Positions 15,291-63,830 of a stretch of 64,000 bases of DNA are shown piece after piece; the first letter of the stretch is position 1, and each line of letters begins with the position of its first letter. Location of the stretch: the NCBI GenBank assembly GCA_019752635.1, contig JAIELX010000008.1, positions 62,001 to 126,000 of the forward strand. Reading direction: 5' to 3'. Made by a program: the position numbers and the translations under genes. The notes beneath the pieces are model-generated. The model was not told the DNA's origin, made no database searches, and was given only the letters and a program-made list of their open reading frames with translations. The DNA comes from Candidatus Obscuribacterales bacterium. Its GTDB lineage: Bacteria > Cyanobacteriota > Vampirovibrionia > Obscuribacterales > Obscuribacteraceae.

Positions 15291-16068
15291 ACCCTACTTC
15301 TCGTCTGTTGATTGTCCACACCGCAAGCAACAAGGCCAGTCCGACGTTTGACGCGTAGGAGAAAAGCGTATGCGGTGCCAACGTAGCATCCAGAGGGAAC
15401 CGGATATACGGAAAGAGCAAGAACCACAGCGGACCGGAAATTACTGTACAAACTTCCTTCAAGAGATGCTGCCCCTGAGCCGCCAGCAGAATCCATCCGT
15501 GCTCTCCACCAGTCTTCATTGGTGCCATGGTACTGACGGCCAACGATATGAGCGCCGTGCTGAATGCCATGCTGAAGAGCGTCAGCTCCGAAGTCGCTGC
15601 ACCAATTGTCGAACACAGAATCAAAAGCGACGATGTTCCCAGAGTCAAGAGAAGAGACGTAAGAATGGTGCTAAGAAAATCCGACCAGACGATGAGGTCG
15701 GGTCTGTTAACCAAATAAACCAACAGTGTCAGAAGTCCCACGCCCAGATTTACAAGCCAAACTCCCAGACCCAGGGCCAACCATTTTGAAAGAACGTAAG
15801 TGCTTCTCTTGATCGGGCGCGCAAAAATAGTGGCAAGCAATCCCTGCTCGCGTTCTCTGGCTATAATTCCCGTCGAGAAGTTGAACAAGAGACCGGCGCC
15901 GGTGACAAGGAAGGTCAATCCATTGAGCGAAGACATTTCTCCGTCCGGCGATAGCACCATGCTGAGTGAAGGAAGAAATACAGCAGCGACCACAATCAAT
16001 AGAACTGCGGTAACCCTCATCGGGCTTCGCATCCAGCCTACCCATGTTGCCCAAATCAGTGTACTCAT
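15277..16068 (-). CDS. ABC-2 type transporter permease
   Basis: A 263-aa integral membrane protein with about six hydrophobic segments (residues ~18-42, 50-70, 98-125, 140-165, 170-190 and 235-255). A cytoplasmic loop with IIAREREQGLLATIFARPI is the hallmark of ABC-2 permeases (NosY/NatB-like). Its start overlaps the end of the ATPase gene by 4 bp (ATGA), and its own end overlaps the thioredoxin-like gene, so the three form an operon. It probably exports a substrate or aids assembly of a membrane or copper-type enzyme; the substrate is unknown. Confidence 0.88.
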   Translation of the reverse strand: MSTLIWATWVGWMRSPMRVTAVLLIVVAAVFLPSLSMVLSPDGEMSSLNGLTFLVTGAGLLFNFSTGIIAREREQGLLATIFARPIKRSTYVLSKWLALGLGVWLVNLGVGLLTLLVYLVNRPDLIVWSDFLSTILTSLLLTLGTSSLLILCSTIGAATSELTLFSMAFSTALISLAVSTMAPMKTGGEHGWILLAAQGQHLLKEVCTVISGPLWFLLFPYIRFPLDATLAPHTLFSYASNVGLALLLAVWTINRREVGYGNA

Positions 16069-21512: not shown

Positions 21513-21563
21513 GTGCAAACTTCTTTCTTTAGCTTTTGGTTTTTTGAGGTTCATCCGGAATGA
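21513..21563 (+). CDS. Phe-rich leader peptide 1 of the aroF attenuator
   Basis: A 16-codon ORF, GTG start to TGA: MQTSFFSFWFFEVHPE, with five Phe and one Trp codon within seven consecutive codons (21525-21545). An AGGA site (21502-21505) lies seven bases before the GTG. Its last codons (GAG GTT CAT CCG GA) are also the 5' arm of the antiterminator, and an intrinsic terminator follows 27 bp after the stop. This is the layout of ribosome-stalling leader peptides such as PheL. The regulated gene is DAHP synthase at 21796. The peptide itself probably has no other function. Confidence 0.85.
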   Translation: MQTSFFSFWFFEVHPE

Positions 21564-21626
21564 GCCAGGAAGCTCGCGTTTAACCGGATGGACCGCAGAC
21601 TGAAACTGCGGTCCTTTTGTTTTTTA
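21548..21626 (+). promoter_or_regulatory. Attenuator 1: antiterminator versus intrinsic terminator
   Basis: Two RNA structures exclude each other. Antiterminator: GGTTCATCCGG (21548-21558) pairs with CCGGATGGACC (21584-21594) over 11 bp including one G-U. Terminator: GGACCGCAG (21590-21598) pairs with CTGCGGTCC (21606-21614) over 9 bp, followed by TTTTGTTTTTT (21615-21625). They share 21590-21594. A ribosome at the leader 1 stop codon covers the antiterminator 5' arm, so the terminator forms. A ribosome stalled on the early Phe codons leaves the arm free, so transcription continues. Confidence 0.85.
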
Positions 21627-21638
21627 GGAGTTCGCTCA

Positions 21639-21692
21639 ATGAAATTATGGCTGTTCAACTTTTCCTTTATCAGCAGAGAAAGTCCCGGGTGA
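21639..21692 (+). CDS. Phe-rich leader peptide 2 of the aroF attenuator
   Basis: A 17-codon ORF, ATG to TGA: MKLWLFNFSFISRESPG, with three alternating Phe codons (21654-21668) and one Trp. A perfect AGGAG (21626-21630) lies eight bases before the ATG and begins directly after the U tract of terminator 1. The last codons AGT CCC GGG T are the 5' arm of a second antiterminator. The last Phe codon is 12 bases before that arm, about the distance covered by a stalled ribosome. Confidence 0.85.
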   Translation: MKLWLFNFSFISRESPG

Positions 21693-21748
21693 CTCGCTCT
21701 TCCGTCAAGGATTTGCATTTACCCGGGACTAGAGGTTCCGGGTTTTTT
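21681..21748 (+). promoter_or_regulatory. Attenuator 2: antiterminator versus intrinsic terminator
   Basis: Antiterminator: AGTCCCGGGT (21681-21690) pairs perfectly with ACCCGGGACT (21721-21730). Terminator: CCCGGGAC (21722-21729) pairs with GTTCCGGG (21735-21742), 8 bp with one G-U and a 5-base loop, followed by TTTTTT (21743-21748). The 3' arm of the first is the 5' arm of the second, so they exclude each other. Completion of leader 2 should favour termination; stalling on Phe codons should favour read-through into DAHP synthase 47 bp further on. Confidence 0.85.
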
Positions 21749-21795
21749 ATTACTACTGTTTGAGCGCGCCTGAATGCCGCTCGTAAGGAGGAATC

Positions 21796-22701
21796 GTGGA
21801 AGGACTCAAAGTTAGCAAGCTCGATAAATCAACAAGTATTATCAAAGTTTCGGAACGCTGTTCAATCGGTGGAAAAGCACTAACCATAATCGCCGGTCCC
21901 TGTTCGGTTGAGAGTAGTGCACAAATGGAAACGGTTGCATCCACACTTGCTTCCGGACCGGTACAAATGATCAGAGGCGGCGTTTACAAACCAAGAACGT
22001 CGCCTTACGCTTATCAGGGCATGGGCGAAGACGGGCTAACCGTGCTCGCAAATGTCCGACAGAAATACAACGTACCGGTCATTACCGAGATTATGTCGAG
22101 CGAACAACTCGCAGGAGTCGATGCGTGCGCCGACATGCTGCAAATTGGCAGCCGCAACATGCAAAACTATGAACTGCTGAAGTCGCTGGGCCGCGCATCA
22201 CGCCCCGTAATGCTCAAGAGAGGCTTATCAGCTACGATTGAAGAGTTCTTGCTCGCAGCGGAATACATCGTCAGTCATGGTAATCCCAACGTCATTCTCT
22301 GCGAGCGGGGAATTCGCAGCTTCGACAACTACACGCGCAATGTACTTGACCTCGGCGCCGTTGTCGCACTGAAGCAACTGACTCACCTCCCGGTTATAGT
22401 TGATCCAAGCCATGCCGCCGGAAAACGCGAATTAGTGGCCGACCTGGCAAAAGCAGCCATCGCGTGCGGAGCGGACGGACTCATGATAGAGTGTCATCCC
22501 GAGCCGGAGAAATCCATTTCCGACGCAAGGCAAGCACTCGCCCTGGAATCAATGCTTGAACTCATTGCAAGCTTGCGTCCAATAGCAAGAGCTGTAGGTA
22601 GGACGATGGAAGAGTGCATCGAAAAATCACATTCATCCGTAGTTCCGCTACCTGTCCGCCACCAATCCACCCGTTCGTCAAATTGGGGTAGACAGCAATG
22701 A
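21796..22701 (+). CDS. aroF: 3-deoxy-7-phosphoheptulonate (DAHP) synthase
   Basis: A 301-aa enzyme for the first step of the shikimate pathway: erythrose 4-phosphate plus phosphoenolpyruvate to DAHP. It is the type I-beta (KdsA-like) form: IIAGPCSVES, MIRGGVYKPRTSPYAYQGMG, IGSRNMQNYELL, LKRGLSATIEEFL, then DPSHAAGKRELV and a metal-site CHPEPEKSISD. There is no regulatory domain; the last ~30 residues are a polar tail. It starts at a GTG behind AAGGAGG. It overlaps the chorismate mutase gene by 4 bp, and two Phe attenuators precede it, so transcription should respond to charged tRNA-Phe. Confidence 0.95.
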   Translation: MEGLKVSKLDKSTSIIKVSERCSIGGKALTIIAGPCSVESSAQMETVASTLASGPVQMIRGGVYKPRTSPYAYQGMGEDGLTVLANVRQKYNVPVITEIMSSEQLAGVDACADMLQIGSRNMQNYELLKSLGRASRPVMLKRGLSATIEEFLLAAEYIVSHGNPNVILCERGIRSFDNYTRNVLDLGAVVALKQLTHLPVIVDPSHAAGKRELVADLAKAAIACGADGLMIECHPEPEKSISDARQALALESMLELIASLRPIARAVGRTMEECIEKSHSSVVPLPVRHQSTRSSNWGRQQ

Positions 22702-22997
22702 GTCAACAACAGGCAAAACGCGTGACCAGCAGCGAGCAATACACCCGAATTCACAATCTTCGCAAAGATATTGACGCGGTCGACGCGGAAATTGCTCGCT
22801 TACTGGAGAAACGGTTTTCTCTATGCAGTGAAATCGGCAAGCTCAAGCGTGAGTTTGATTTATCTGTCGAAGATCCACGCCGAGAGATTGTTGTGCTGAC
22901 AAGAGTGGCGGAAGCCACGGAAGACCGACAACTGCGAGAATCGGTCCTAAACGTGTATCGCATCATCTTGAAAGAAAGTCGCGAAATCCAGACTTAG
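22698..22997 (+). CDS. aroQ: Chorismate mutase (AroQ type)
   Basis: A 99-aa all-helical chorismate mutase converting chorismate to prephenate. The family core is LRKDIDAVDAEIARLLEKRFSL then IGKLKRE and a D(P)RRE stretch. It is a free-standing domain without dehydratase; a separate prephenate dehydratase lies at 62985. Its ATG overlaps the aroF TGA (ATGA), suggesting coupled translation. In type I-beta systems a free mutase may bind the DAHP synthase to give feedback control; here that is inference. A long hairpin lies 48 bp downstream. Confidence 0.93.
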   Translation: MSQQQAKRVTSSEQYTRIHNLRKDIDAVDAEIARLLEKRFSLCSEIGKLKREFDLSVEDPRREIVVLTRVAEATEDRQLRESVLNVYRIILKESREIQT

Positions 22998-23044: not shown

Positions 23045-23091
23045 CAACCTACGTAGCCCGAACAGCCCCTCATCTCGGGCTACGTAGGTTG
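23045..23091. repeat. 17-bp perfect inverted repeat downstream of aroF-aroQ
   Basis: CAACCTACGTAGCCCGA (23045-23061) and its exact complement (23075-23091) surround 13 bases. No U tract follows on either strand. It may end or stabilise the aroF-aroQ mRNA. Confidence 0.6.
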
Positions 23092-62984: not shown

Positions 62985-63830
62985 TTAGTCAATGTAGTCA
63001 ATGGGCGGAGGATAAGTCCCGAGCATTCTTGAATAAGTCAAGCCGTGAACAGTTTCAACATCATTGAAGTCTTCGCAGACAAAATCGATGAACACCGCAT
63101 AGGTCCAGCCCTCCTCAGGCACGGGACGAACGACGATGGATGTAACTTCAATTCTGTTTCCCTTAGGCAACAACTCCGACAGCGATATCTGTTTTCCTGC
63201 GCGGAGTTCAAATAGTACTGTCATTTTCATGGGCAGTGCCGGGGGCGGGCAGCCACCGACGGACACTAATGCAAACCGCGTGCAGTTGTCCTGGTAATCC
63301 TGAATGCCGCGCTCCAATATCTCCAAATCGTACTGAACCGCGGCGTCTTCACTGGCGATGGCTGCGACCGACGGATTCTCAGACTGGCTGACAAACAGCG
63401 CCGCGCCGGCTGTGTCGAACGCCTCCACCGGCAAGATCTCTTTGTGCTGCTCAAAGAACGATTTGCATTGCATCAAAGCAACAGGGTGCGAGTGAACCTC
63501 GCGAATCTCATCGATGGAAACGCCAGTCTTCGCAAGCAAGCAATGCGCAACAGGCAGGTACAGATCACGACTGATTCCAAGAACGCCGGTTCGCAAAGCA
63601 TCGTAGTTTGCAGCAATCGGACCGATAGAGGAATTCTCCAGCGGTAGTATGCCAAACCGATTCCGGGGGCTTCCGTTGATCGTTTCCTCCACTACTATGT
63701 CGAACGAGGCGCGGCTCTCAAACCTAACGTCTTGTCCTTCGAACTCGACCTGCGCAAATATTTGCGCTGCGCGATGACTAAACGCACCGGGAGCACCTTG
63801 ATAATAGAGGTGTATGACCGGATCAAGCAT
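62985..63830 (-). CDS. pheA: Prephenate dehydratase
   Basis: A 281-aa enzyme converting prephenate to phenylpyruvate in phenylalanine synthesis. The periplasmic-binding-like catalytic fold is seen in YYQGAPGAFSHRAA, GILPLENSSIGPI, HPVALMQCKSF and the catalytic Thr of DNCTRFALVS. The C-terminal ~75 residues are ACT-like but do not show the usual GALxxxL and ESRP motifs, so Phe feedback may be altered. Its ATG overlaps the end of aroB by 8 bp. Confidence 0.92.
   Translation of the reverse strand: MLDPVIHLYYQGAPGAFSHRAAQIFAQVEFEGQDVRFESRASFDIVVEETINGSPRNRFGILPLENSSIGPIAANYDALRTGVLGISRDLYLPVAHCLLAKTGVSIDEIREVHSHPVALMQCKSFFEQHKEILPVEAFDTAGAALFVSQSENPSVAAIASEDAAVQYDLEILERGIQDYQDNCTRFALVSVGGCPPPALPMKMTVLFELRAGKQISLSELLPKGNRIEVTSIVVRPVPEEGWTYAVFIDFVCEDFNDVETVHGLTYSRMLGTYPPPIDYID

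Follow-up and report, generated by a model that had tools for sequence, protein, structure and literature searches.

A candidate pair of leader-peptide attenuators in series upstream of aroF-aroQ in Obscuribacteraceae and Cyanobacteria

The aroF-aroQ operon of a Candidatus Obscuribacterales bacterium is preceded by two attenuator-like elements, which raises the question of what each of them senses and what a second gate adds to the first. The 64,000-nucleotide stretch of DNA that we analyzed (contig JAIELX010000008.1, positions 62,001 to 126,000; here called the window) had been annotated from its letters as carrying two Phe-sensing attenuators in tandem. Our preferred reading, to which we assign a probability of roughly 0.9, is that two independent ribosome-mediated transcription attenuators stand in series before aroF-aroQ and that both are opened by uncharged aromatic tRNAs.

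Anatomy and predicted switching of the two gates

The locus occupies positions 21513 to 22997 of the forward strand. Leader ORF 1 (21513 to 21563), read from the sequence, has a GTG start and encodes MQTSFFSFWFFEVHPE; relatives keep the endings FYFWF-EVHLG or YFYFWFRVVHRE before the stop. Within this ORF lies the 5′ arm of antiterminator 1 (21548 to 21558), which pairs over 11 bp with a 3′ arm at 21584 to 21594, as indicated by folding, covariation, and ribosome modeling. The 3′ arm overlaps intrinsic terminator 1 (21590 to 21625; stem at 21590 to 21614, T tract to 21625), whose pairs are kept in relatives. Thirteen nucleotides after the T tract, leader ORF 2 (21639 to 21692) begins with an ATG preceded by AGGAG and encodes MKLWLFNFSFISRESPG; its cyanobacterial homologues end in SWFYGFYFWPRxSSG. 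The end of leader 2, including its stop codon, forms the 5′ arm of antiterminator 2 (21681 to 21692). Its 12-bp helix with the 3′ arm at 21719 to 21730 was found by folding and by pairing in relatives, and that arm overlaps intrinsic terminator 2 (21721 to 21748; stem at 21721 to 21743, T6 tract to 21748), identified by a terminator call and likewise by pairing in relatives. Both window leaders contain Phe codons and one Trp codon each and have no Tyr codon.

Downstream, aroF (21796 to 22701) encodes a type I-beta DAHP synthase without the N-terminal ferredoxin-like domain (TIGR01361 and NF006421 above cut-off; PF00793 only, no PF18152). Its stop overlaps the start of aroQ (22698 to 22997), which encodes a stand-alone chorismate mutase (PF01817; NCBIfam chorismate mutase models below cut-off). 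Shortly 3′ of aroQ there is a long inverted repeat, CCTACGTAGCCCGA...TCGGGCTACGTAGG, at 23049 to 23090, without a T tract. The window also carries pheA (prephenate dehydratase, PF00800) on the reverse strand at 62985 to 63828, after the end of an aroB-like gene and with no leader attenuator between the two.

Both antiterminators folded better than dinucleotide shuffles (z scores of −4.35 for antiterminator 1 and −4.34 for antiterminator 2), and none of 200 shuffles was as good. A caller that required a short ORF rich in aromatic codons together with a terminator and a competing helix returned only the two aroF gates on the forward strand of the 64 kb and made no call in 12 simulated 64-kb sequences. 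Its single reverse-strand match (15677 to 15836), an ORF ending in LRARSREALTFFQNGWPWVWEFGL with a terminator-like hairpin, is probably due to chance.

We modeled folding as a function of ribosome position, assuming a ribosome footprint of 14 nt. With the ribosome at the stop codon, the antiterminator arm was covered and the terminator formed (P of 0.999 for gate 1 and 0.967 for gate 2). A stall at the early Phe codons let the antiterminator form before the 3′ arm of the terminator existed (P of 0.998 and 0.986), and it also formed with no ribosome present (P of 0.998 and 0.985). Once the full terminator of gate 1 was available, the two structures were almost isoenergetic (−16.5 versus −16.3 kcal/mol), so the decision at gate 1 would be kinetic. 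Relatives behaved alike: the terminator won with the ribosome at the stop codon in 122 of 123 loci for gate 1 and 91 of 95 for gate 2, and the antiterminator formed with a stalled ribosome in 122 of 123 and 92 of 95 loci, respectively.

These structures would operate as follows. When tRNA-Phe or another aromatic tRNA is uncharged, the ribosome translating a leader would stall on its aromatic codons, and the last part of the ORF would stay available for pairing with the terminator's 5′ arm; the resulting antiterminator would let RNA polymerase continue. If the ribosome instead ran on to the stop codon, it would cover that part of the ORF, and the terminator would form. RNA polymerase would have to pass both gates, so that DAHP synthase would be made only during a shortage of aromatic aminoacyl-tRNA at both leaders. 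As the initial annotation proposed, the effects of the two gates may multiply and their thresholds may differ.

The initial annotation had also stated that both gates lack the 1:2 pause or protector hairpin of the classical four-segment trp/phe attenuator. That hairpin is indeed absent from both window gates, and for gate 1 the statement extends to all relatives, in which the antiterminator was the default without a ribosome (123 of 123 loci); it does not extend to gate 2, where the same was true of 54 of 95 loci and about half of the cyanobacterial loci have a competitor to the antiterminator.

Conservation and covariation of both modules

Both leaders precede an orthologous DAHP synthase gene at 30 Obscuribacteraceae loci (at one of them, L034, a contig end truncates leader 1). 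In a collection of named genomes, whose matches were mostly cyanobacterial, 72 cyanobacterial loci extended far enough upstream, and 70 of these had both modules in order; the remaining two were limited by the extent of the DNA examined. We also ran covariance models of modules 1 and 2 over whole genomes, blind to genes. In the main cyanobacterial class, 340 genomes were sampled and the leader 1 model matched 129 of them, representing 67 of 144 genera. Across the scans, the two modules of a pair started about 130 to 260 nt apart. Among 292 genomes of the phylum, leader 1 was upstream in 27 of the 28 that have the close DAHP synthase subtype; the remaining genome (G209) has just leader 2. One weak leader 1 match (L170 in G099) could not be interpreted as a functional leader.

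Compensatory changes were strongest in antiterminator 1, where 94.3% of cells were paired, 8 of 11 pairs showed double changes, 36 double-change cells compared with 12.3 in shuffles, and pairing stood sharply above that at any slide. Terminator 1 was paired in 97.7% of cells across 35 sequences. The helices of module 2 were paired in 84% (antiterminator) and 82% (terminator) of cells; their covariation was weaker, with some rows poorly aligned, and less clean in Obscuribacteraceae. The anatomy, the covariation, and the phylum-wide order of the modules thus bear out the annotated arrangement of two attenuators in series before aroF-aroQ.

Module 1, with its ACCGCAG stem, and module 2, with its CCCGG stem, are each conserved with their own sequence, and both are shared with cyanobacteria; we therefore rejected the recent duplication of a single attenuator, in agreement with what the annotation had proposed on this point. 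No Rfam covariance model, the T-box included, scored above its gathering threshold, and the matches below threshold appeared to be due to chance. With no Rfam T-box match and with leader ORFs present, we rejected a T-box riboswitch or tandem T-boxes.

In a DAHP synthase tree, the cyanobacterial copies formed a clade (95 to 97% support) within an Obscuribacteraceae radiation that has long branches and is poorly resolved, and the tandem shared by the two groups may be either strictly vertical or lateral in origin. Three loci from more distant Vampirovibrionia (L032, L033, and L041) have only one aromatic leader ORF upstream of their DAHP synthase gene. In two of them (L032 and L033) we read by eye an ACCGC-type terminator resembling terminator 1, and the single gate may be older than the tandem.

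Leader codons and the readings that they favor

Phe, Tyr, and Trp were all present in 92 of 93 cyanobacterial leader 1 sequences and in 80 of 81 leader 2 sequences. Such a codon set is expected because DAHP synthase feeds the synthesis of all three amino acids. The aromatic core of the cyanobacterial leaders is kept at the amino acid level, with silent changes between the Tyr codons TAT and TAC and with interchange of F and Y. At the Trp site of leader 1, all of the unique cyanobacterial sequences (67 of 67) have TGG.

The codons differ between paralogues. The closest paralogue of the window aroF in its own genome (66% identity; contig C14 of G000, locus L002) is preceded by two tandem leaders with essentially only Tyr codons, MQLSYYYYYYRREVRSR and MTFYYYYYGIVNRGSPG, each with an antiterminator and a terminator; an upstream in-frame start is also possible for the first, giving MVKVSKFLASKQLQLSYYYYYYRREVRSR. 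By best match, the gene that follows encodes a chorismate mutase-prephenate dehydrogenase (models below curated cut-offs). The same split between a Phe/Trp-coded and a Tyr-coded copy was found in three further genomes (G024, G033, and G064) and less clearly in a fourth (G034). Leaders of the Phe/Trp type did not form one clade (AU test, P = 3.4e-6), which implies at least two recoding events; for the Tyr-only leaders, one origin is compatible with the tree (AU test, P = 0.07). We dropped the rule that Tyr-coded leaders always accompany a downstream tyrA, since in two genomes the Tyr-type copy is followed by chorismate mutase alone. The sensing of Phe proposed in the initial annotation is therefore too narrow: Phe codons are present in the window leaders, as is Trp, while nearly all cyanobacterial leaders have Phe, Tyr, and Trp and the paralogue in the same genome has Tyr.

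A more elaborate possibility, which we hold only tentatively, is that the two gates sense different things, gate 1 responding to Phe or Tyr shortage only and gate 2 to shortage of any aromatic amino acid, Trp included; the combined output would be a DAHP synthase that answers Phe or Tyr shortage and not Trp shortage alone. Gate 1 would be deaf to Trp because its Trp codon is so near the antiterminator arm that a ribosome stalled on it would cover part of the arm. Trp occurs in 93 of 93 cyanobacterial leader 1 sequences, yet only 6 have it 13 to 45 nt before the arm, whereas it is far enough from the arm in 76 of 81 leader 2 sequences. Set against dual-signal tandems of the mgtCBR type, both window leaders carry Phe and Trp, and the spacing of Trp differs between the gates. 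In window gate 1, a stall at the Trp codon (W21537) lowered the modeled probability of the antiterminator, before the 3′ arm of the terminator is made, to 0.69, compared with 0.998 at the earlier Phe codons. These values depend on the assumed 14-nt footprint, however, and partial antiterminators may suffice. An extension of the same idea, which we likewise consider doubtful, is a two-gate logic circuit common to Cyanobacteria and Obscuribacteraceae. Gate 1 would report Phe and Tyr charging and shut on a Trp stall, gate 2 would report Trp, Phe, and Tyr, the combined signal would replace the allostery of a DAHP synthase that lacks the regulatory domain, and the codons of both gates would have been reprogrammed at gene duplication.

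It is very unlikely that each host has one functional gate and that the other is a decaying remnant, although relatives with one leader exist. Leader 1 alone was found in the g11 genomes (L021, L025, and L028) and at L020 and L163, and leader 2 alone was found at L190. A well-conserved leader 1 attenuator also stands before a chorismate mutase-like remnant with no DAHP synthase gene (L188, contig C175 of G017) and is possibly a relic after gene loss. In G014, an orthologous aroF without any leader (L012, 626 to 2364) directly follows a trpA-like (tryptophan synthase alpha-like) gene, possibly as the result of a move into a trp operon. The retention of both leaders in relatives, named in the initial annotation as the check on its proposal, was thus observed in most of them; the single leaders that it had named as a refutation occurred in a minority (the g11 genomes, L163, L020, and L190). 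Because relatives with one gate or none exist, the second gate is not essential everywhere. Against general decay, both modules keep aromatic codons and pairing at the 70 cyanobacterial and 30 Obscuribacteraceae loci, and for each paralogue in G000 the two gates have been recoded to the same set of amino acids.

The strikingly conserved leader 2 peptide of cyanobacteria might instead point to TnaC-like nascent-peptide arrest, in which the leaders would bind a free aromatic amino acid and would not sense tRNA charging. F and Y swap at several sites, however, length and spacing vary, both Tyr-only and Phe/Trp versions exist, and antiterminator pairing explains the conserved tails (EVH and SSG); we consider arrest highly improbable. 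Both hairpins are good intrinsic terminators, but the idea that they simply end an upstream transcript beside chance small ORFs has a negligible probability, given conserved aromatic ORFs and competing helices that recur phylum-wide at one gene and a chance rate near zero.

Known attenuators and the gated enzyme

Serial attenuation by aromatic tRNA charging, the reading that we prefer, has parallels among known systems. The gates have the features of a leader-peptide attenuator, namely, an ORF with aromatic codons that match the pathway, an intrinsic terminator before the gene, and a mutually exclusive antiterminator that overlaps the leader end. As in E. coli trpL and pheL and in Salmonella his, a short ORF enriched in codons for the product and exclusive antiterminator and intrinsic terminator structures precede a biosynthetic gene. 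Here, in contrast, two complete attenuators stand in series, and in the window neither has a 1:2 hairpin that competes with the antiterminator, a hairpin that is present in trp and his leaders (Elf and Ehrenberg model, PMC1183508).

Single leaders before aroF have been described. According to a review (PMC11802643), the Phe-Tyr-Phe leader aroR of Corynebacterium glutamicum controls aroF by ribosome-mediated attenuation (Neshat et al., 2014); it likewise attenuates a DAHP synthase gene but is a single leader in another phylum. The uORFC-13-1 motif before aroF in Acholeplasma is a predicted uORF with Phe codons beside a terminator; it has one uORF, and its known occurrences are confined to Acholeplasma and environmental sequences (PMC8632094). 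Attenuators have also been predicted near tyrA and aro genes of aromatic-pathway operons, with two attenuator units in Streptococcus pneumoniae; these units precede two separate gene groups as printed, and the available part of the table lists no cyanobacterium (PMC1173090).

The closest tandem is Salmonella mgtCBR, in which one leader RNA holds two leader ORFs with attenuators, called a singular example for different signals (PMC3641672). Its signals are ATP and proline and its stem-loops are unlike intrinsic terminators (PMC3641672), whereas both aroF gates have intrinsic terminators and aromatic codons and precede a biosynthetic gene. Two leader peptides are also needed to control ermB, by translational attenuation through antibiotic stalling and not by serial transcription termination (PMC8274638). 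A 2016 survey of leader genes states that reliable data on cyanobacterial attenuation are lacking (PMC4833913), and we found no description of tandem aromatic leaders before aroF in the open-access literature. What appears new is the serial double aromatic gate with intrinsic terminators; leader-peptide attenuation, single aroF leaders, and the mgtCBR tandem were already known.

In type I-beta DAHP synthases, feedback inhibition is carried by the N-terminal ferredoxin-like domain. That domain (PF18152) is absent from the leader-bearing enzymes that we examined (the window aroF, L002, and L089) and present in the leaderless paralogues L003 and L050. Only 2 of 128 leader-bearing genes have room in the open frame for 60 extra N-terminal residues, while the open frame of most leaderless paralogues allows about 65. 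Because the leader-bearing enzymes examined lack the domain of their leaderless paralogues, these sequences suggest that control at the RNA level replaces allosteric control, the two charging gates standing in for feedback inhibition. A second terminator in series would lower leak.

The proposed mechanism is of a textbook type, doubled, and would control the first enzyme of the aromatic pathway both in many laboratory-culturable cyanobacteria and in their nonphotosynthetic relatives. Natural pairs with one gate or two, and with Phe/Trp or Tyr codons, make it possible to ask whether a second attenuator gains lower leak, a steeper response, or combined logic.

A tandem cassette was also seen before a different gene. 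At L187 (contig C20 of G009, reverse strand, matches at 2616 to 2883 of the locus), tandem Tyr-rich leaders with terminators precede a PvcA/isonitrile synthase-like gene (PF05141), and the locus also carries genes for a TauD-like dioxygenase and an FAD monooxygenase-like protein. This cassette, which fits starvation-induced biosynthesis poorly, seems to have moved to a pathway that possibly uses tyrosine.
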